DNA of 47,260 bases from Kordia sp. TARA_039_SRF (GTDB lineage Bacteria > Bacteroidota > Bacteroidia > Flavobacteriales > Flavobacteriaceae): NCBI GenBank assembly GCA_006383075.2, contig SMNH02000016.1, forward strand, positions 1 through 47,260. Direction: 5' to 3'. The notes under the pieces were generated by a model. The model had not been told where the DNA came from. It made no database searches and saw nothing but the letters and a program-made list of their open reading frames with translations. Made by a program: the position numbers and the translations under genes. Positions 2,942-38,226 of this stretch are shown here, piece by piece; positions within the stretch are counted from its first letter, which is position 1; every line of letters starts with the position of its first letter.

Positions 2942-2968
2942 TTGGAGCGAGTCTATGACTCGTTCCAA
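2942..2968 (-). terminator. Possible terminator overlapping the 3' end of the GT4 gene
   Basis: An inverted repeat (2942-2953 with 2957-2968, 12 bp with one G-U, 3-nt loop) overlaps the stop codon of the reverse-strand glycosyltransferase. No clear T-run follows, so it may instead be a repeat fragment. The tract just left of it (2851-2873) resembles a dispersed intergenic repeat. Confidence 0.3.
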
Positions 2969-4092
2969 AGAGAAACATACTGCTCCGCAACTATTTTATA
3001 GTGGTGAAATTCTTCCACAAACGCACGTGCACGCTTTCCAATAGCTATCAATTCATCCGGATTTTCTATGAGTAGACTAAGTTTTTCAACCAAATCATCA
3101 ACATTTGGAGTTGCGTTAATCAATACAGGTTTTTCAATAGTGTAATAGGCTAAAAAATCTTTTTCCGCTCCAGAAAACACTACTTTTCCTTTCGCCATTG
3201 CTTCTAGCGCGTTATATCCTTGATCGTAACCGTACAATTGATCCATAATAATATGCGCTTCGTTATACGTTTGAATATATTCTGAATACGGTAAATTCTC
3301 AACCGTTTTAACCTCAACCTGAGTTGGATATTTTTTGGCAACAAGTTGCAAGGCTTTCGCAATCAAGTCGTTTCCTTTTTTTAAGTAATTGACTCTATTA
3401 ACACCATGAAAAATAATCACTTTTCCGTTGTAGTGTAACGGTTGAAACTTTAATAAATCTATATTGATTGGAAACGGAATCAAAGGCAATACTTTCGGAT
3501 GATTTCGATACGCCATTTCATAATCAAAATTTGCAGGAATAATTCCATTGACGTTTTCCATTACAAAATGATGCAGCTTTTCATGCGACTTCGATAAATA
3601 TTGAAGCGAATACTGAAACCATTTTTTAGTGCTTTTATCTTTTTCATATGCTGACAACATATGATAAGGCAAATCGGCATTCAAAATAAAATTCACATAA
3701 TAAAAATCATCGCCACAAGAGGACAAAAACACTTTTTTATTATGCTTAAAGAGATATTTCAATAATTTTCGCTCCACAAAAGGTGTTGTAGCAAACGGAA
3801 ACTCGTTAACCAATTGTACAACATCGTAGTTGCGAAACGACTTTCGGTGTTTGTAAAAACGATAGGTAATCTCTAAAAAAGCAATATCAATCTTAAAAAT
3901 TTTAAAGAATAACTGGCGAAACGCATTGGGAATCTTTTTATGAAAAAAAGTAGCTTCGAGCGAAACATCAATTGGGTAATTTTTAAAGTTGTCAGCGCGA
4001 CCGATGAGCGTAACATCGTGCTGTAACTTTTGTAGACCTTCTTTAAGCGAATTGTGAAATCTACTGTATTCTCCAACCAATAATATGCGCAT
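2953..4092 (-). CDS. Family 4 (GT-B) glycosyltransferase
   Basis: A 379-residue cytoplasmic GT-B glycosyltransferase. The N-terminus 'MRILLVGEYSRFHNSLKEGL' is the first Rossmann strand and glycine-rich acceptor loop. The C-terminal nucleotide-sugar domain contains 'YNALEAMAKGKVVFSG' (about residues 294-309), corresponding to the E-x7-E region of GT4 enzymes although the first Glu is not in its usual place, and ends 'FVEEFHHYKIVAEQYVSLW'. Such enzymes transfer activated sugars to lipid-linked or LPS/capsule acceptors; the sugar cannot be read from sequence. It is divergent from another GT4 gene, with 38 bp between the start codons, and sits in a glycan-assembly neighbourhood, so a role in a surface polysaccharide is inferred. 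There are no transmembrane segments. Confidence 0.85.
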   Translation of the reverse strand: MRILLVGEYSRFHNSLKEGLQKLQHDVTLIGRADNFKNYPIDVSLEATFFHKKIPNAFRQLFFKIFKIDIAFLEITYRFYKHRKSFRNYDVVQLVNEFPFATTPFVERKLLKYLFKHNKKVFLSSCGDDFYYVNFILNADLPYHMLSAYEKDKSTKKWFQYSLQYLSKSHEKLHHFVMENVNGIIPANFDYEMAYRNHPKVLPLIPFPINIDLLKFQPLHYNGKVIIFHGVNRVNYLKKGNDLIAKALQLVAKKYPTQVEVKTVENLPYSEYIQTYNEAHIIMDQLYGYDQGYNALEAMAKGKVVFSGAEKDFLAYYTIEKPVLINATPNVDDLVEKLSLLIENPDELIAIGKRARAFVEEFHHYKIVAEQYVSLWNES

Positions 4093-4098
4093 AAACAG

Positions 4099-4106
4099 TA
4101 TATTTG
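4099..4106 (+). promoter_or_regulatory. -7 element of the GT4/fdtA promoter
   Basis: TATATTTG is a perfect match to the Bacteroidota -7 consensus TAnnTTTG, 24 bp before the ATG at 4131. No well-spaced TTG is seen upstream. A reverse-strand -7-like element (TATCTTTC, 4110-4117) for the divergent gene lies only three bases away. Confidence 0.55.
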
Positions 4107-4130
4107 CGTGAAAGATAGTAGGAAAACTTT

Positions 4131-5216
4131 ATGCAGCAAAATTCTAAAAAGAAAATCTGTTTAATTGTCGAATGTCTCAGTGGCGGCGGCGCGGAAAAGC
4201 AGGCAGCCAACTTTTCAAAATCGCTTCACAAGTACGGTTTTGAAGTGACTATTATTTCGATAAAAGACCAGATTTCCTACGATTTTGCTGGAACCTTGTA
4301 CAATCTTGGAAAAGGGGAATCTTCTGTGAAAATCATCAAACAAATTCAGAAGTTTTTTGCGTTTAAAAAAGCCTACCGACAGTGTAACGCTGATATGTAT
4401 ATTGACTTTCGCTCTCGAAGTCGTTTTGTGATGGAATGGCTCTTGCATAAATTCATTTTTCAAGCTGAAAAAATGATCATGATGGTGCACAGCTATCACA
4501 TCGAGTGGCATATCCCGAAAGGAAAACTATTTCGAGAAATTTATAATAAAACGCATGCGGTAGTGGCGGTTTCAGAGGAGATTCAATGGAAATTGGGCGA
4601 TTTGTACGATTTTGAGAACTTATTGTGTATTCCGAATTATATTACTGCCGTAGAATCGCCTCAGAGCGAACCAAATGTGGCAAAAGAAGATTACATCATT
4701 GCTGTTGGACGTTTGCAAAACGACATTAAGCAGTTTGATCGATTGATAGAAACCTATCACGCATCTAAATTGGCAAAACAACAGATCAAACTGTATATTT
4801 GCGGTGATGGAGACGACCGAGCATCGTTGGGACAATTGATTTCAACATTGCAATTACAAGCGCATGTACAACTCTTGGGATTTGTTGAAAACGTGACCGA
4901 ATACATCAGAAACGCAAAATATTTAGTACTATCGAGTAGGGTAGAAGGCTTTCCGATGGTTTTATTAGAAGCATTGCAACAAAAAACGCCTGTCATTTCT
5001 TTTGATTGCAAATCGGGACCGAGTGAAATTATTCAACACAAAATCAACGGTTTGCTCGTTGAAGATCAAAACTTTGCGGCGTTGAAAGATGCAATGTTAC
5101 TTTTAATCGAAAATATGGAATTGTATATGAATTGTAAAGAAAATGCTGTATCTTCCATACAAAAATACACTGAAAACCCTATAATCCGCGAATGGATTCA
5201 ACTCATAAATGCCTAA
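4131..5216 (+). CDS. Family 4 (GT-B) glycosyltransferase
   Basis: A 361-residue retaining GT-B enzyme. The N-terminal glycine-rich acceptor loop is 'ECLSGGGAEKQAANFSKSL' (about residues 14-32), and the C-terminal donor domain has 'AVGRL', 'LYICGDGDDR' and the GT4 signature 'SSRVEGFPMVLLEALQQKTP' (about residues 267-286) with both catalytic-region Glu residues. 'SGPSEIIQHKINGLLVE' is the usual final motif. It is probably a sugar transferase in O-antigen or exopolysaccharide assembly. The stop codon is followed after 3 bp by the fdtA-like gene, so the two form an operon; this suggests that the deoxy-amino sugar pathway and this transferase work together. The promoter is at 4099-4106. Confidence 0.9.
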   Translation: MQQNSKKKICLIVECLSGGGAEKQAANFSKSLHKYGFEVTIISIKDQISYDFAGTLYNLGKGESSVKIIKQIQKFFAFKKAYRQCNADMYIDFRSRSRFVMEWLLHKFIFQAEKMIMMVHSYHIEWHIPKGKLFREIYNKTHAVVAVSEEIQWKLGDLYDFENLLCIPNYITAVESPQSEPNVAKEDYIIAVGRLQNDIKQFDRLIETYHASKLAKQQIKLYICGDGDDRASLGQLISTLQLQAHVQLLGFVENVTEYIRNAKYLVLSSRVEGFPMVLLEALQQKTPVISFDCKSGPSEIIQHKINGLLVEDQNFAALKDAMLLLIENMELYMNCKENAVSSIQKYTENPIIREWIQLINA

Positions 5217-5219
5217 AAT

Positions 5220-5645
5220 ATGTCTACAACTGTTGCTGATATTCAATTGATATCCATCCCCAAAATCGAAGACTTTAGAGGAAATATTTCTGTCGTTGAA
5301 GGTGATACAATCCCTTTTAAATGCAAACGTGTCTATTATTTGTACGATATTCCTAGTGGCGCAAAAAGAGGTGGGCACGCACACGTAGAACAGCAAGAAG
5401 TATTGATTGCGTTGAGTGGAAGTTTTGAAGTAATTTTTAAAGATGGAACGTCCAAAAGACGGTTTTTACTCAACAAACCCAACCAAGGTTGCCTGATTCC
5501 ACAAGGAATTTGGCGCGAATTGGAAAATTTCTCTTCAGGAGCGGTTTGTCTCGTTTTAGCTTCCGACGAATTTGACGAATCCGATTACATTCGCGATTAT
5601 CAAGATTATGTCATCACCAAAGAAGATGTGAAGTTGTCTAAGTAA
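5220..5645 (+). CDS. fdtA: FdtA/WxcM-like sugar 3,4-ketoisomerase (cupin)
   Basis: A 141-residue cupin of the FdtA/QdtA/WxcM C-terminal family. These convert dTDP-4-keto-6-deoxyglucose to the 3-keto isomer, the first committed step towards dTDP-Fuc3NAc or Qui3NAc. The key segment 'GAKRGGHAHVEQQEVLIALS' (about residues 47-66) supplies two histidines, H53 and H55, equivalent to the catalytic pair of FdtA. 'GTSKRRFLLNKPNQGCLIPQ' and 'WRELENFSSGAVCLVLAS' are further family hallmarks. It follows the GT4 gene by 3 bp. The aminotransferase (FdtB), acetyltransferase (FdtC) and the rmlA/rmlB genes that normally accompany it are absent here. The gene symbol rests on family resemblance; substrate stereochemistry (galacto or gluco product) cannot be told. 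Confidence 0.85.
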   Translation: MSTTVADIQLISIPKIEDFRGNISVVEGDTIPFKCKRVYYLYDIPSGAKRGGHAHVEQQEVLIALSGSFEVIFKDGTSKRRFLLNKPNQGCLIPQGIWRELENFSSGAVCLVLASDEFDESDYIRDYQDYVITKEDVKLSK

Positions 5646-5936
5646 ATTTTAGCTTCGCTCAATTTACAGTTGTGAGATGTTAGTGGTGAGTATTGAGATA
5701 CCTTCAAAAGTACATTTTGTGGAAACTTTACAATGTTTTTCTTTCCTTATTTTTAGTTGTTTAATTAGAATTTTACTGCTTTAAAATGTAAAATCATTAA
5801 TAGACAACAAGTTATGAGTGATTAGTTAAGAGTGACAAATAGATGAATCAACAAAAAACAAATAACGAAAACAAAAAATCAGCAAACCAAAAGCAAAGCG
5901 ACCTAATACCTAACACCTAAATTGAGTGTAGCGAAA
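5646..5936. other. Intergenic region between convergent fdtA and GT2 genes
   Basis: 291 bp between two converging genes. I see no hairpin with a T-run, no credible gene and only a low-complexity A-rich tract (about 5845-5895). A 25-codon ATG ORF here was rejected. Confidence 0.5.
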
Positions 5937-6878
5937 CTAAAAAGAAGTCACCCTAATATTCCGCTTTAACAAAAATCTTTTCAACTTTTTCAGCCAAACC
6001 AATACAAATCGCGGACTTTTTAATAGCAATCGCTGTTTGAAAGTTAAATTATTATAATCGATGTTTTGTAGCATATAATTTCGTTGACGCATCGCGTTTT
6101 CCAAGGTGTACATGGAAGCAAAAATATAGCGATACAAATCCAAGTATTTTTTTAAGGAAAGATTGTTCTTTGCAGCTTTTTCGAAACTATCTAAATTAGG
6201 AATACACTTTGAAGCAATAGTATCTTTGCTCATTTGGTTGGGAATTTCAAAGTGAATTTCAGCCAAAACTTCATAGTGATATGCAATGCGATATTTCAAT
6301 CCGAAGCGAATGTAAAAATCGATATCTTCTGCAAATGTAATTTTAGGATTAAAGACCTCAACATCTTCACAAATAGATTTTTTAAACGCCAAACTGCTCT
6401 GGCAAAAAATCGGCTGAAACATGCTAGCTTCAAAGAAATCAGGAATCAAAAATGAAGTTCCTTGCAAAGAAGTATCAATATTTTTTTTGGGAACTAAATT
6501 TTCATGCGAATCGTAGACTTCTATATAATCCGTTCCATACAAAGACGCTTCTGGAAATTGTGTGTATAACGCATGAATTTTTTCTAAAAAGTTAGGCAAC
6601 CAAACATCATCGGCATCTAACAACGCAATAATGTCACCTGTAGCTTTGGAAATTCCGTGATTTCGTGTAGAAGACAGTCCCAAATTCTCAGGGTTTTCTA
6701 TCAGTTGAATTCTATCGTCAGAAATTTGGGAAACTACGGAAACACTATTGTCTGTACTTGCGTCATTTATAATGAGCAATTCAAAATCCGTAAAGGTTTG
6801 TTGCAAGACACTTTCAACAGTTTGCTGAATGTACTTTTCTTTGTTATACAATGGAATAATTACGGAAAAAAGTGGCAT
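5937..6878 (-). CDS. Family 2 (GT-A) glycosyltransferase
   Basis: A 313-residue GT2 enzyme. The N-terminal 'FSVIIPLYNKEKYIQQTVES' (about residues 4-23), 'LLIINDASTDNS' (34-45) and the metal/nucleotide-binding DxD in 'IALLDADDVW' (D88, D90) are textbook for inverting GT-A transferases such as those of the WcaA/EpsE type. The C-terminal third is basic and lacks clear transmembrane helices ('RLLLKSPRFVLVWLKKLKRF' could be an amphipathic membrane-binding helix). It shares its first base region with the stop of the upstream GT2 gene (overlap of one base), making it the last gene of the four-gene reverse-strand operon. A role in surface glycan synthesis is inferred; acceptor and donor are unknown. 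Confidence 0.9.
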   Translation of the reverse strand: MPLFSVIIPLYNKEKYIQQTVESVLQQTFTDFELLIINDASTDNSVSVVSQISDDRIQLIENPENLGLSSTRNHGISKATGDIIALLDADDVWLPNFLEKIHALYTQFPEASLYGTDYIEVYDSHENLVPKKNIDTSLQGTSFLIPDFFEASMFQPIFCQSSLAFKKSICEDVEVFNPKITFAEDIDFYIRFGLKYRIAYHYEVLAEIHFEIPNQMSKDTIASKCIPNLDSFEKAAKNNLSLKKYLDLYRYIFASMYTLENAMRQRNYMLQNIDYNNLTFKQRLLLKSPRFVLVWLKKLKRFLLKRNIRVTSF

Positions 6879-7774
6879 TATTGACGCTTATCTAAGTAAC
6901 AAAGATACGTTAATCTGTATAAGTCAAAAATAAACATAGATGGATTGTTGGAAAGTAAATTTTTCTCAAAACGGTTTCCAAACCAGCGATACATCAATGA
7001 TAAAACATGATTGATTCCAACGGTTTTGACACGCTTGAACACTTTTGTAATTAAAATATCGTCGTGCTCAATCAGTCTGTTTTTTAAGAATAAAATCAAC
7101 ACTTCTACCGATTCCATCGACTTTCTGATAAATTCTTTGCTCGTGTCTAATCCCAAATGATACACAGGATTGTGAATATGCGTCATGTGAACTTCCGCAT
7201 GTTTCAAATCGTTGGCAAATAATGTATCTTCATGACGAGCATTGGGTATTTCTTCGTTGAATTTCACTTTTTGAAATACTTCTTTCTTAATCAAAAAACT
7301 CAAGGTTAAAAAACGTAAATACGACGCTTCTTCGCGCTGCTGAACACTCAATGCTTCACGTTCTTTTCCATATATCCAACGCAATACATTTTCCTGTTTT
7401 GGTTTCTCTTCTTGATATAAAATTCCGCCGTAAATCACTTCTTTTTCGTCTGAAATGGCTTCTACATATTTTGTGATAAAATCGGAGTGAACTGGCATTA
7501 CATCGGCATCCAAAAATAACAACCAATCGTACTGCGCTTTTTGGGCGAGCAAATTCCGAATTCGGCTGCGACCGATATTTTCAGGCAAAACCGTGTAGGA
7601 GGCATTGGAAAACGAGTTAATTCGCTCGTTTTTCTGAATGGTTTCTTGATTTTTAGAACAATCATCCAAACATAAAATTTCAAAAACATACGCTGTCTTC
7701 GTGAGTTGCGTGTGAATTTCCTCTACTAAAGAAGAAATGTCATAATCATACGTGGGAATCAGTATTGACAGCAT
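6878..7774 (-). CDS. Family 2 (GT-A) glycosyltransferase
   Basis: 298 residues when started at the ATG at 7774 ('MLSILIPTYDYD'); a TTG four codons earlier is possible but less likely. GT2 hallmarks are 'LSILIPTYDYD', 'EILCLDDCSKN' (32-42), 'ENIGRSRIRN' (65-74) and the DxD in 'WLLFLDADVMP' (D89, D91). 'RHEDTLFANDLKHA' around residue 185 corresponds to the catalytic-base (ED) region. The start overlaps the end of the methyltransferase gene by 29 bp and its stop overlaps the next GT2 start by one base, so translation is coupled through the operon. Probably sugar transfer in surface polysaccharide assembly. Confidence 0.88.
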   Translation of the reverse strand: MLSILIPTYDYDISSLVEEIHTQLTKTAYVFEILCLDDCSKNQETIQKNERINSFSNASYTVLPENIGRSRIRNLLAQKAQYDWLLFLDADVMPVHSDFITKYVEAISDEKEVIYGGILYQEEKPKQENVLRWIYGKEREALSVQQREEASYLRFLTLSFLIKKEVFQKVKFNEEIPNARHEDTLFANDLKHAEVHMTHIHNPVYHLGLDTSKEFIRKSMESVEVLILFLKNRLIEHDDILITKVFKRVKTVGINHVLSLMYRWFGNRFEKNLLSNNPSMFIFDLYRLTYLCYLDKRQ

Positions 7775-8510
7775 TTTTGGTCGCAATTAGTACAATTTCA
7801 GGTGATGCATACCCAAAATACGCATCGTTATTTTCAGGAGTGAAATATAAGCTTTTTACCGTAAAACCAACTTGTGTAAGTCGTGTTTTTAATCCTTCTG
7901 GCGAATAAATGCGCACATGGTCTTCTTGTCCAAAATGTTGTAACCGATCTTCGGGAGTTGTGATGCTTTCATTTTCGTAGATGTCGCCTTCTTTAAAAGG
8001 TGTTTGTATCAGTACGTTTGCGTTGGGTTTGGCAATTCTGTACAATTCCTTCATTGCTTTTAAATCGTTTGGAATATGTTCCAATACATGGAAACAAATA
8101 ATGGTGTCAAACGCAGCGTCTTTTTGGTCAATATTGGTAATGTCGAATGTATAATCGGCAATAAACTCATCCTCGTAATCGGATGTAATATAGGTAATAT
8201 CTGTTCGCTTTTTTAACTTTCGATAGATGTTTCTCGAAGGAGAAAAATGCAATACATCGCCTCGCAAGTAATTTTCAGTATTCAGAATTTTCCATAAGCG
8301 TCGATTTCTAGCCAAGCTTCCGCAGAATGGACATAGCAAGTCGTTATTTTTTAAGGAAATAAAAGTGCGCAACTTCCGATTGCACACGCCGCATTGGTGT
8401 GTTGTTCCTATAAAAAAAATACCGTGAAAAAACCTAAAAAACGGTTCGTTTTGAAATAAAAAGCGTTTCGGTAGTAGCTTTTTGAATGTCTTTTTTAGAA
8501 TGCTATACAT
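7746..8510 (-). CDS. SAM-dependent methyltransferase with N-terminal zinc ribbon
   Basis: 254 residues. Residues 40-63 carry two CxxC pairs (C40/C43 in 'CGVCNRKL', C60/C63 in 'CPFCGS'), a probable zinc ribbon. This is followed by a class I methyltransferase domain: a degenerate motif I region 'GDVLHFSPSRN', an acidic 'DYEDEFIADYTFDITNID', and motif IV/V 'FDTIICFHVLEHIPND' (about residues 133-148) typical of UbiE/Coq5-like enzymes. The substrate is unknown; its place between an ABC ATPase and two glycosyltransferases suggests sugar or glycolipid methylation (inference). It overlaps both neighbours (8 bp with the nominal 3' end of the ATPase gene, 29 bp with GT2). The basic N-terminus 'LKKTFKKLLPKRF' may contact membrane or nucleic acid. 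Confidence 0.8.
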   Translation of the reverse strand: MYSILKKTFKKLLPKRFLFQNEPFFRFFHGIFFIGTTHQCGVCNRKLRTFISLKNNDLLCPFCGSLARNRRLWKILNTENYLRGDVLHFSPSRNIYRKLKKRTDITYITSDYEDEFIADYTFDITNIDQKDAAFDTIICFHVLEHIPNDLKAMKELYRIAKPNANVLIQTPFKEGDIYENESITTPEDRLQHFGQEDHVRIYSPEGLKTRLTQVGFTVKSLYFTPENNDAYFGYASPEIVLIATKNAVNTDSHV

Positions 8511-9690: not shown

Positions 9691-9864
9691 TTAGCACATT
9701 ATTTCAGTAAACGTTGTATCACATGGTCCTGTAAGTTGTATTGGGCAAATAGGATCATTTGGGTACAGTAGTGAAAGTCTAAACGGATTTCCACCTGAAA
9801 CATGTTTTAGATTCGAAATGGACTTTTTGTTAAGCTGTAAAGTTTTTAATTCTTTTTTTTTCAT
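9691..9864 (-). CDS. GG-leader lanthipeptide-like precursor peptide 2
   Basis: 57 residues when started at the Met of 'MKKKELKTLQLNKKSISNLK'; the frame stays open upstream for 53 codons but that part is low-complexity and lacks the leader pattern. GG at residues 24-25 ('KHVSGG') ends the leader. The 32-residue core, starting at N26, has three Cys, including 'QLTGPCD' and a C-terminal Cys as the last residue, plus several Thr/Ser. Leader and the LTG-x-C-D core motif show it is a paralogue of the neighbouring peptides. It would be made as a monocistronic mRNA ending at 9644-9665. Modification is inferred, not shown; no maturation enzyme is nearby. Confidence 0.78.
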   Translation of the reverse strand: MKKKELKTLQLNKKSISNLKHVSGGNPFRLSLLYPNDPICPIQLTGPCDTTFTEIMC

Positions 9865-10032
9865 GGTTAAATAATTTAAGGTTTGTAATTGAAGATATAA
9901 AATAAGTAGAAAAAAATAAGTGTTTTCTGCAATTTTAACTGAATTATGAAATTTTCTAAAAAAAGAGGCTGCTGCTTTAAAAAAGTATAGTTTTTGAGAA
10001 AGAGATTGTCCGTAAGCAAACAAATAAAAAAA

Positions 10033-31628: not shown

Positions 31629-32588
31629 ATGCATAAAAACTACTATATCTGCGCATTATTTTTTGTGTTGTGTAGCATCACTATCTCATGTAAAACGACT
31701 TCGAAAGTTCCCATGAAAAGTATTCAGTTGGAACTTTTAAAAGACAATATTTCTACGGCAGAAAAGTATCGAGGTATTGAAAATCTTCAAAAACGAATTG
31801 TGTCACTTGGTGCGGAAAATGTAGTTATTGCAGCACAAAACAATCAAAAAATTACATTTAATTATCAAGGAGACATCAAGCTAGAAGCTTTTGAAAAAGC
31901 ATTTATGGTGTCGGGAAAGCTAGAATTCTTCGAAGTGTGTTTAGAAAAAGAAGTTTTAGTTAAAAGCTTACTCAACTTACATTACAAAATGTCTGGCAAG
32001 GATAGTATAATCTCTGATAGAATAGATCATAAAGAAGATAATGATACGTTTTTCGGAATGTCATTTGCAGAGTTAGGATCTGTTTTTCTTGGAACTATTT
32101 CAGAAGAAAACGAAGAAGAAATCATTCCGTTGCTAAAAAAAGCGTCAATATATGTAGCGGAACAAAAAAAGTATGTCAAATTTCTATTAGGTAGAAAAGA
32201 CGAAAAAGATAGGTATGAAGTGTATGCAGTCTATGTCAACAAAGATGGCAAATCTACGTTAGATGGAAGTTATGTTGTAGCTACTGCTACTGAAAAATCT
32301 CTTTACAATGATTCGTACAATGTGAATATTGAAATGGATGAAGTTGGCGCTAAAATCTGGGAAGAATTAACCACGCATGTATATTATACAAGAGGGAATA
32401 TCGCTGTTGCGGTTGATAATGAAGTGTATATGGCTCCAACTGTTTCTAGCGGAGGAATTTCAGGTGGATTTAGTCAAATTTCAGCAAATCTCAATGAGGA
32501 AGAAGCGTCAATGTTGGCGAATGCTATACGTTTAGGAGCCATCCCGAAGGTGAAAATCATTTCTGTATCAACACTCAAACCTTATTAA
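31629..32588 (+). CDS. Exported SecD periplasmic-head-like protein (putative lipoprotein)
   Basis: 319 residues, signal sequence ending 'CSITISC' (probable lipoprotein Cys at about residue 21). It is related to the periplasmic P1 region of SecD. Residues about 255-272 'RGNIAVAVDNEVYMAPTV' match SecDF 'RGNIAVVLDNIVYSAPGV' (about 434-451), the next 'GGISGGFSQISANLNEEEA' matches 'GAISGGNTEISGQFTIQEA', and 'LANAIRLGAIP' matches 'LANVLRAGKLP'. Upstream, 'NLQKRIVSLGAENVVIAAQ' and 'KLEFFEV' match the SecD base ('VLNKRIDQFGV', 'ELEFWKT'). The SecD transmembrane helices are absent. It lies 0.9 kb upstream of secDF with one gene between. Function unknown; a free-standing head could bind exported chains or be a decoy paralogue. 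Confidence 0.8.
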   Translation: MHKNYYICALFFVLCSITISCKTTSKVPMKSIQLELLKDNISTAEKYRGIENLQKRIVSLGAENVVIAAQNNQKITFNYQGDIKLEAFEKAFMVSGKLEFFEVCLEKEVLVKSLLNLHYKMSGKDSIISDRIDHKEDNDTFFGMSFAELGSVFLGTISEENEEEIIPLLKKASIYVAEQKKYVKFLLGRKDEKDRYEVYAVYVNKDGKSTLDGSYVVATATEKSLYNDSYNVNIEMDEVGAKIWEELTTHVYYTRGNIAVAVDNEVYMAPTVSSGGISGGFSQISANLNEEEASMLANAIRLGAIPKVKIISVSTLKPY

Positions 32589-36641: not shown

Positions 36642-36803
36642 TTATTTTTCGCAAATAACCGCAGAATTTTGACAAATACCACCACAAGTAATATTCGTTT
36701 TGTGTGTAGTTGGTGCTGCTAAACCTCCTGTAACTTTTTCAGTAGTTAATTGAGAAATTGCTGTTTTGCGTAATGCTAATGATTTTACATTTCTAGTTTT
36801 CAT
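36642..36803 (-). CDS. GG-leader lanthipeptide-like precursor peptide 4
   Basis: 53 residues, ATG at 36803-36801. Leader 'MKTRNVKSLALRKTAISQLT' then 'TEKVTGG' (GG at 26-27) keeps the K-x-x-K-S-L-x-L-x-K-x-x-I-S-x-L pattern of the array at 9.3-10.3 kb. The core begins 'LAAPTTHKTNITCGGICQNS' and has three Cys, ending 'ICEK'. It lacks the LTG-x-C motif of the other three, so it is a different core on a similar leader. It lies 75 bp 3' of the GT2-TPR gene on the same strand and could be in its transcript or have its own start. No modification enzyme is adjacent apart from that glycosyltransferase. Lanthipeptide class is inferred from the leader only. Confidence 0.75.
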   Translation of the reverse strand: MKTRNVKSLALRKTAISQLTTEKVTGGLAAPTTHKTNITCGGICQNSAVICEK

Positions 36804-36878
36804 GTGTATAAAATTTTAAGTTAATGATATCAAGATATACATCATATAGCAAACTTACTTACGGGAAAACCGTAGAAT

Positions 36879-38054
36879 TCATTGCAATGTAGTTTCTAGC
36901 GTTTTTGGTTTTTTCCATTTAGCATCTTTTTCTCTGGCTTTTCTAACAAATGCTAACGCCTTTTTTTTGTCATTCTTTTGCATAAAAATAAACGCATACA
37001 ATAGTAAAGAATCGGCTTGTAGATGTTTTTTGTGACTATCTAAATAAAGAATACATAAAAAATAGTACTTACAACTATACAAAACACTTGCAATTTTATA
37101 CACCTTATCTGCTTTTTCACAATAACACGCAATGTACATAGCATTATCAAAATCAGATGCTTTTACGGAAGTCTTTAACTTGAGGTAGTATTTTAGTGCT
37201 GTGCGATACTTTTTTAACGAAAAATAAAAATCGCCCAACAACATATTAGTGATAGTGTACGATGTGTAATTGGGGATACTTTTTAATGCTGTGATGGCTT
37301 TTTCTGTATTACCACTTTCGTGGAATAATTGACTCAAAATAACCTTTGTAGCTACTAAAATCTTTTTATTTGTTGGTTGAAACGCCGCTATACTTTTGAA
37401 TGTTTCGGTAGTATTTTTAAAATATTTCAGCGTTTTTATCTTTTGATACCTAAGCCATTCATTATCGGGATGTGCTTGTAAATAGGTGTTAATCTGTGTT
37501 AGATATTTTTGTTGTTTGGAATTGACAAACGAGATTTCTGCACTGATAAAGTGTTTTAGATAGCAATGTTGTTGAATTAATACGGGAATGTTTTCGCGTT
37601 CAAAAAAATCATCAAGTCGTTCGTGAATAGGATACTGGAATTTGGCGTTGGTTGAGCGTTTAAACAAGCGAATAATATGTACCGGGAATTGCACAAGTTT
37701 CAAATCGTGATGTTGCCTGTATATTTCTTTTCGAACAATAGAAAACGCTTTTGCGCTGGTTGTTTTTAAGTTGGGTAAAAACTGTTGGTCGTACACCAAA
37801 CGTTCATCGGCATCAATAATTAAAATCCATTCGCCAGAAGCTTTTGAAATGGTAAAATTCCGCGCCAGCGAAAAATCATTTTTCCATGCTTTTTGATAAA
37901 TAAGATTGGTGTATTTTTTTGCTATTGCTACGGTATTATCTGTAGAAAAAGCGTCTAATATGATAATCTCACTAGCAATATCCTGTACAGATTTTAAGCA
38001 TGATTCAATAGTAGACGCTTCATTTTTTGTTATAATGCAAACGGAAAGCAGCAA
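36879..38054 (-). CDS. GT2 glycosyltransferase with C-terminal TPR region, TTG start
   Basis: 391 residues. Residues 2-90 are a GT-A fold: 'LLSVCIITKNEASTIESCLK', 'IIILDAFSTDNT', 'NDFSLARNFTISKASGEWIL' and DxD 'IDADERL'; 'YPIHERLDDFF' gives the IHE acceptor/metal-site motif. From about residue 190 on, helix pairs ('GNTEKAITALKSI', 'LLGDFYFSLKKYRTALKYYL', 'KALAFVRKAREKDAKWKK') form TPR-like repeats. This architecture occurs in LPS sugar transferases and in the glycocin S-glycosyltransferase SunS. There is no ATG, GTG or other Met near the front; the TTG at 38054 is the only sensible start, three bases after the TAG of the 45-residue peptide ORF in the same frame. Donor and acceptor unknown; a peptide acceptor is a hypothesis. 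Confidence 0.82.
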   Translation of the reverse strand: MLLSVCIITKNEASTIESCLKSVQDIASEIIILDAFSTDNTVAIAKKYTNLIYQKAWKNDFSLARNFTISKASGEWILIIDADERLVYDQQFLPNLKTTSAKAFSIVRKEIYRQHHDLKLVQFPVHIIRLFKRSTNAKFQYPIHERLDDFFERENIPVLIQQHCYLKHFISAEISFVNSKQQKYLTQINTYLQAHPDNEWLRYQKIKTLKYFKNTTETFKSIAAFQPTNKKILVATKVILSQLFHESGNTEKAITALKSIPNYTSYTITNMLLGDFYFSLKKYRTALKYYLKLKTSVKASDFDNAMYIACYCEKADKVYKIASVLYSCKYYFLCILYLDSHKKHLQADSLLLYAFIFMQKNDKKKALAFVRKAREKDAKWKKPKTLETTLQ

Positions 38055-38057
38055 AAA

Positions 38058-38195
38058 CTATGAATGGTAAAAGGAACTTACTTCATTTTGTTCTGCTTCT
38101 TCGCTAGCGCCACCAATGATTTTTGAAGTATCAATAGCAGGCTTTTTTGCAAATTTTTCTAACATGGTAGACGATAAATAACGTAATAGGCTCAT
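38058..38195 (-). CDS. 45-residue GG-motif peptide, coupled to the GT2-TPR gene
   Basis: Reads MSLLRYLSSTMLEKFAKKPA through DTSKIIGG (GG at 28-29) to a short acidic, Ser-rich tail 'ASEEAEQNEVSSFYHS'. It has no Cys. The leader is not of the LNK-x-xIS type, but ending in hydrophobic-GG before a small, uncharged-then-acidic tail is typical of precursors cut by C39-type peptidases. It sits in the same frame as the GT2-TPR gene, with only TAG-TTT between the two, so translation of the enzyme is probably coupled to it. An internal ATG (Met11) would give 35 residues. It is not recognised as a known family. A -7-like element lies at 38219-38226. Whether it is a precursor, or a leader ORF that only controls the enzyme, cannot be told. 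Confidence 0.6.
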   Translation of the reverse strand: MSLLRYLSSTMLEKFAKKPAIDTSKIIGGASEEAEQNEVSSFYHS

Positions 38196-38218: not shown

Positions 38219-38226
38219 TAAATATA
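38219..38226 (-). promoter_or_regulatory. -7-like element of the GG-peptide/GT2-TPR operon
   Basis: On the reverse strand TATATTTA, 7/8 of TAnnTTTG, ends 23 bp before the ATG at 38195. No clear TTG at the usual distance. Confidence 0.4.

Follow-up and report, generated by a model that had tools for sequence, protein, structure and literature searches.

The 45-codon gene pep45 and the glycosyltransferase gene that follows it in a Kordia genome very probably form one functional two-gene unit. The reading of it that we favor, tentatively and at slightly short of even chances, is that the enzyme is a peptide or protein O-glycosyltransferase with a dedicated partner, pep45, which it would recognize by the free C-terminus and which would probably be its acceptor. 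Taken by itself, the statement that pep45 is the acceptor of the enzyme seems to us evenly balanced. Enzymes related to this GT2 protein occur widely (at E <= 1e-30 in 49 of the 395 genomes of a phylum survey, its own genome counted), and to our knowledge few of them have known acceptors; in this case the partner seems to be indicated by the genome, as a peptide whose free C-terminus is short and conserved.

The window (the whole 47,260-nucleotide stretch of DNA that was analyzed) is part of a Kordia genome, G000, whose same-genus relatives include K. periserrulae (G002) and K. jejudonensis (G007). The three open reading frames that a preliminary description had placed together on one strand are all present at the positions given, on the minus strand, and they are transcribed in the order pep45, GT2-TPR gene, Cys-containing ORF. 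The features are as follows:

38219..38226, minus strand: TATATTTA box 5' of pep45; by eye, the same box lies at a similar distance in the four Kordia carriers, and it is a possible promoter element upstream of pep45
38058..38195, minus strand: pep45 gene, 45 aa, C-terminus ..QNEVSSFYHS; orthologs adjoin the enzyme gene in 4 of 11 Kordia genomes (its own counted) and in Flavobacterium saliperosum
38058..38072, minus strand: codons of the C-terminal FYHS of pep45 plus the stop; all five peptides end in [FY]YHS, their codons differing synonymously
38052..38060, minus strand: junction TAG-TTT-TTG, consisting of the pep45 stop, one codon and the TTG start of the enzyme
36879..38054, minus strand: GT2-TPR glycosyltransferase gene, 391 aa, TTG start; Glycos_transf_2, TPR_8, DADE
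36642..36803, minus strand: Cys-containing leader-like peptide ORF, 53 aa; a neighbor outside the two-gene unit

Occurrence and surroundings of the gene pair

Among 11 Kordia genomes, four have both pep45 and the enzyme (G000, K. periserrulae, K. jejudonensis and G004, the peptide matching at E 3e-22 to 2e-11 in the last three) and seven have neither, a co-occurrence with a Fisher p of 0.003 that ignores phylogeny and adjacency. The best enzyme matches in the seven non-carriers are GT2-domain relatives that align over about the first 150-180 residues (E ~1e-17 to 7e-15), and the peptide matches there are at E 0.1 or worse. The preliminary description had proposed a co-occurrence analysis of the 45-residue ORF with GT2-TPR genes and had made its case depend on conservation of that ORF; both points came out in its favor, since the two genes are present or absent together in all 11 Kordia genomes and are paired again in F. 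saliperosum, so that pep45 is kept in four of the 11 and in a second genus. G001 gave only a weak peptide match (E 0.34) with two internal stops and no FYHS.

The gene order cysS-lgt-DUF192-...-secDF is kept in all 11 Kordia genomes, and the four carriers have pep45 about 100 to 640 bp past DUF192. A tree of SecDF, Lgt and DUF192 from these genomes places the carriers on three separate branches: G000 with K. periserrulae, K. jejudonensis as sister to the non-carrier G009, and G004 as sister to the non-carrier G006 (support 100 for each of the latter two pairs). One fixed location together with carriers on three branches suits an old gain followed by repeated loss of both genes, although a single deletion can remove adjacent genes. 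In G004 the enzyme may be dispensable, because its gene is broken into two frames there and the 46-aa peptide, which ends in YYHS, is intact.

The F. saliperosum enzyme (locus L059) is 45% identical to that of the window and is preceded by a 46-aa ORF that ends in EVDAFYHS and stops 10 nt before the enzyme start. A profile built from the four Kordia peptides only, to avoid circularity, ranked this ORF first among the 82 small ORFs of the 13-kb F. saliperosum locus (E 4e-4; the next was at 0.8). Its last eight residues equal a Kordia tail at six positions, and 5575 other small-ORF tails reach at most four; this null set omitted L059, L060, L098 and all YHS-ended ORFs, so that chance FYHS ends could not score in it, and among its loci were some that the FYHS pattern had brought in. 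The surroundings differ from those in Kordia, with DUF4230 downstream and, upstream, a GSCFA gene together with a gene whose Nucleotid_trans/GT8 matches are sub-threshold. Because that upstream gene is weakly GT-like, a glycan context for the enzyme is still conceivable in F. saliperosum.

Elsewhere in the window, positions 2953-8510 hold a cluster of polysaccharide type, with two GT1/GT4-like genes, a gene for an FdtA-like cupin, two GT2 genes and a methyltransferase gene, and positions 31629-32588, upstream of secDF, encode a protein of 319 aa that has a SecDF_P1_head domain (54.5 bits) and may be an incomplete SecD-like duplicate.

The peptide

Alignment of the five peptides leaves M1, L7, S9, Q36, V39, Y43, H44 and S45 invariant, and the final four residues are [FY]YHS in every one of them; the C-terminus, on which the preliminary description is silent, is by this alignment the best conserved part of pep45. 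The tail codons differ synonymously among the peptides, and the dN/dS values of the window's pep45 are 0.16 against K. periserrulae, 0.24 against K. jejudonensis and 0.27 against G004, with 0.36 for K. periserrulae against K. jejudonensis, each pair resting on 10 to 28 changed codons out of 45. By these codon comparisons pep45 is shown to be under purifying selection at the protein level. The N-terminus varies, being cationic in Kordia and hydrophobic in F. saliperosum.

The preliminary description had given the tail as having five Ser and no Cys; the lack of Cys was borne out, and the number of Ser after the GG is four. Over the whole peptide there is no Cys in the four Kordia sequences and one, close to the N-terminus, in that of F. 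saliperosum. As to the hydrophobic-GG site described at the same time, the four Kordia peptides have GG with Ile at -4, but neither position -7, with T, T, P and S, nor position -12, with K, K, K and N, is hydrophobic, and GG is missing from F. saliperosum, the fifth peptide. A GG leader as the defining feature of the family was rejected on these grounds.

The stop/TTG junction

TTG is the start codon of the enzyme at each of the five loci; it lies 3 nt past the peptide stop in the four Kordia genomes and 10 nt past it in F. saliperosum, and the first in-frame ATG of the enzyme comes only at codon 110-296. The two ORFs share one frame in Kordia, with a single stop (TAG or TAA) between them, so are they perhaps read as one protein? 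Read-through of the stop seems unlikely, and reinitiation would be the simple reading of the junction, because in F. saliperosum the two ORFs lie in different frames. RNA folding of the junction was compared with shuffled sequences in four loci (all except G004) and gave z -3.57 for K. periserrulae and z -0.28, -0.5 and -1.5 for the other three. An RNA element at the junction was rejected, there being no consistent fold across the four loci.

The enzyme and its nearest relatives

The GT2-TPR architecture of the preliminary description was confirmed. Glycos_transf_2 (PF00535) matches at 69 bits against a cut-off of 23.3 (E 6e-19), TPR_8 at 27.6 bits is just over its cut-off of 25.7, and in the structural model helices come after an alpha/beta domain. 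A Pfam search of the K. jejudonensis enzyme at E 0.001 gives no TPR, and we therefore prefer to call the C-terminal half "TPR-like"; the enzyme profile weakly matches TPR domains such as HOP TPR2A (E 0.004). Invariant positions make up 20-32% of the TPR-like half and 42-55% of the GT2 half. The acidic DXD-type motif DADE is at residues 81-84 in all four aligned orthologs, and its invariance in a 32-row alignment is circular, LIIDADE having been one of the two patterns by which the viral rows were fetched.

An AlphaFold2 model from 32 sequences has a mean pLDDT of 86, with 288 of 438 residues at or above 90. It supersedes a model from four sequences in which the GT domain was poor and for which Foldseek gave consensus TPRs first and then SunS. 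Foldseek against the PDB now returns SunS and ThuS as the first six chains (2e-17 to 1e-16), with AvpGT next at 4e-10. These SunS/ThuS matches have 19-22% identity, TM values of 0.37-0.53 and rmsd of 12-16 Å over 382-410 alignment columns, and such low TM and identity and such large rmsd suggest that the modeled enzyme and SunS/ThuS have common domains that are differently arranged. GmaR is not among the 50 Foldseek chains listed; by phmmer it is the nearest solved sequence (8e-24, residues 3-153), with SunS at 1e-16 (residues 6-203). The preliminary likening of the enzyme to peptide glycosyltransferases thus agrees with its nearest solved relatives, GmaR, SunS and ThuS, and by sequence and model it appears to fall among peptide and protein glycosyltransferases, S- and O-linking alike.

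Structure prediction of the enzyme together with pep45, a check suggested earlier, gave the enzyme model described above and left the peptide, fused in cis through the stop codon, unplaced, with pLDDT 42-66 in the first five blocks of ten. No docking on the enzyme was seen in this fusion, which says little on docking because the fusion hides the free C-terminus. PADLOC gave no match for three proteins at E 0.01.

Comparison with known systems

SunS and ThuS, the S-glycosyltransferases of sublancin and thurandacin, resemble the enzyme in having a GT2 domain and a helical C-terminal part, and their genes adjoin a small peptide gene. The enzyme nevertheless scores 64.7 bits against the 350-bit cut-off of the SunS family TIGR04195, and the K. 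jejudonensis and F. saliperosum enzymes, at 71.1 and 76.8 bits, are likewise below 350. Glycocin precursors, which bear their sugar on Ser, Thr or Cys, have a paired-Cys hairpin core that pep45 lacks, and glycocin clusters include a C39 peptidase/ABC transporter gene, none of which is linked to the Kordia enzyme: Peptidase_C39 has five matches in G000, all of them on contigs other than that of the window, is absent from the enzyme's contig in K. periserrulae and K. jejudonensis, and in G004 is at least 0.6 Mb from the enzyme. More generally, no transporter or peptidase gene is linked to the pair in the Kordia carriers. Because the SunS cut-off is missed, the tail is Cys-free, there is no C39 gene on the contig and F. 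saliperosum has no GG, the pair is not, as far as sequence can tell, a typical glycocin cluster. The excerpted text of one glycocin study describes some glycocins with a GK site in place of GG and a search for glycosyltransferases near C39-type transporters (PMC12457901); a filter for transporter proximity of this kind would miss the pep45/enzyme pair.

GmaR, the Listeria flagellin O-GlcNAc transferase, is alike in having a GT domain followed by TPR. According to the portions of PMC9638930 used here, it transfers GlcNAc to flagellin, and its authors propose that its TPR recognizes the substrate; it differs in that it is 637 residues long, includes a linker and an antirepressor domain and has flagellin as its substrate, whereas the enzyme here has 391 residues and a dedicated 45-aa peptide (PMC9638930). 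The Flavobacterium GT2-TPR-like proteins that come next after F. saliperosum in our survey are alike in the GT2 domain and in a size of 357-368 aa, but they score 96-114 bits against 687 and have no FYHS-ended peptide upstream. In seven Flavobacterium genomes (L061-L066, L068) a GT2 protein is encoded beside an aminotransferase gene, presumably for an ornithine aminotransferase, with no conserved small peptide.

At the level of titles and abstract openings, no description of the pep45/enzyme pair was found in the literature, nor anything that joins FYHS, C-terminal and glycosyltransferase. The passages considered from a Flavobacteriaceae survey that describes Kordia as rich in gene clusters (PMC10734526) and from a Bacteroidales survey of peptide S-glycosyltransferase areas (PMC10352776) do not mention the pair.

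What the pair may do

In the favored reading, the stop/TTG junction would couple translation of the two genes, the free C-terminus of the peptide would be bound by the TPR-like tail, and the GT2 domain would move a sugar from a nucleotide sugar onto a hydroxyl of pep45. O-glycosylation at the C-terminal Ser, or at the conserved Tyr, would be the most likely reaction because the tail is Cys-free and the C-terminal Ser is its sole Ser/Thr column common to all five peptides. A fuller proposal, which taken whole we think unlikely, is a glycocin-unlike system of Flavobacteriaceae in which the enzyme recognizes the free [FY]YHS of a coupled-translated pep45 with a Cys-free tail and O-glycosylates its terminal Ser (or Tyr), and the resulting small glycopeptide may act intracellularly or as a signal. 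If glycosylation is true, peptide glycosylation would gain a type that is Cys-free and has no linked transporter, and binding without glycosylation would point to a peptide-steered glycosyltransferase.

The main rival to an acceptor role is that pep45 is a dedicated adaptor or gating ligand, held at the TPR-like tail by its [FY]YHS and placing or activating the enzyme through its N-terminal part, some other target being glycosylated; we hold this to be improbable, though a serious contender. C-terminal peptides are ligands of TPR proteins such as HOP (EEVD) and Rap (Phr), the conserved part of pep45 is just such a free C-terminus, the enzyme has a TPR-like domain with the weak HOP TPR2A match, the junction would favor matched amounts of peptide and enzyme, and the variable N-terminus (cationic or hydrophobic) would fit as well. 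The nearest solved relatives, however, modify the peptide or protein on which they act, and the cis fusion gave no docking. The junction could also be explained if pep45 were a leader ORF that delivers ribosomes to a weak TTG start, its product having no function: stop and TTG are 3-10 nt apart in all five loci, there is no early ATG, and the K. periserrulae junction RNA folds better than its shuffles. Such a leader has little probability in our view, since the tail is conserved as protein, through synonymous changes, across two genera and in spite of differing spacing and frame, and folding is not consistently above shuffles in the other three loci tested.

GT2 domains are common in polysaccharide loci, and the preliminary description had kept LPS biosynthesis as the conservative alternative, to be preferred if the enzyme's orthologs sat in LPS loci without the peptides. 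That the enzyme acts on LPS, capsule or another glycan beside an incidental small ORF would fit the F. saliperosum copy, which follows the GSCFA gene and the weakly GT-like gene, and the polysaccharide-type cluster 28 kb away in the window. The four Kordia carriers, however, have the enzyme by cysS, lgt and DUF192, with secDF further on, and the peptide accompanies it in five of five loci, so a glycan role is a slim prospect. Slimmest is an acceptor role for the Cys-containing peptide, as in S-linked glycocins, which the preliminary description had offered as its other candidate. In the window this peptide begins 75 bp beyond the enzyme gene and contains Cys, and the enzyme resembles SunS; yet synteny over the 11 Kordia genomes speaks against it as acceptor or partner, and it was rejected as both. 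It lies between DUF192 and secDF in seven of them, namely three of the four carriers and four of the seven without the enzyme (Fisher p = 1.0 against enzyme presence), in G004 it is beside secDF, with 7.5 kb between it and the enzyme, and it has no match at E 1e-3 in the 14 kb around the K. jejudonensis enzyme. It also belongs to a leader-like family with 50-103 matches per Kordia genome (11 genomes, E <= 1, many of them weak). By gene order, the Cys peptide is a neighbor and stands outside the unit.

The class I lanthipeptide leader family NF038153 (cut-off 22 bits) matches the Cys peptide at 12.9 bits and its K. periserrulae ortholog at 18.1 bits, both below the cut-off, and the quoted part of the Flavobacteriaceae survey names only three Kordia-specific RiPP cluster families (PMC10734526). 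Copies of the peptide between DUF192 and secDF number three in G009 (L169, 4338-5261) and two in G010 (L261, 4014-4544). A similar peptide with GG and Cys is encoded at 9691-9870 of the window (minus strand) and scores 19.3 bits against the same 22-bit cut-off.

Search for further carriers

Five sampled surveys (order, Flavobacterium, phylum, family and relatives of G491) yielded no carrier beyond the five loci; their samples overlap, and about 4-6 candidates were scored per genome. A single-sequence query over 395 genomes of the order found only its own genome at E 1e-28. The 398 Flavobacterium genomes gave nine matches at E 1e-25, with F. saliperosum (G491) at 687 bits and the rest at 96-114, and in the phylum survey the best match after the own genome was 178 bits, with the distant relatives G1068 and G890 matching nearly the whole enzyme length at 159 bits. 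The family survey of 397 genomes returned G000 and G002 at E 1e-45, and that of 296 relatives of G491 returned G491 only. A separate scan of genome contigs found three loci and missed G004, and hence is not exhaustive. Viral contigs contributed 75 loci with matches mostly to the GT2 domain, and plasmids two partial matches to the enzyme. Within the surveys made, the family thus appears rare, at five loci.

On the peptide side, a profile of all five sequences found the five family members and ten other matches at E 0.1-3.6. FYHS-like ends were sought in 97 loci and, outside the family, turned up just twice, in frames 8 and 14 residues long (L075, L096). The pattern TWYTAYCAYTCNTRR occurs in 4-15 places per genome in 12 genomes, and its reversed control in 1-9. 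The non-family places examined were those in G000 (11), K. jejudonensis (7) and G004 (11); 3 of these 29 end in TGG and not in a stop, and an in-frame ATG precedes four of the remaining 26 (5-34 aa); before the FYHS, none of the 26 is like pep45. This reading considered ATG starts only, leaving aside GTG and TTG starts, the places in G002 (7) and G491 (3), and the non-carriers. Other FYHS-ended peptides were accordingly dropped as extra substrates in G000, K. jejudonensis and G004. Finally, on the enzyme side, G981, G1068, G890, G1046 and G1104 of the phylum survey have open frames of 763-802 aa that the enzyme profile matches twice, which suggests two GT2 domains in one chain.
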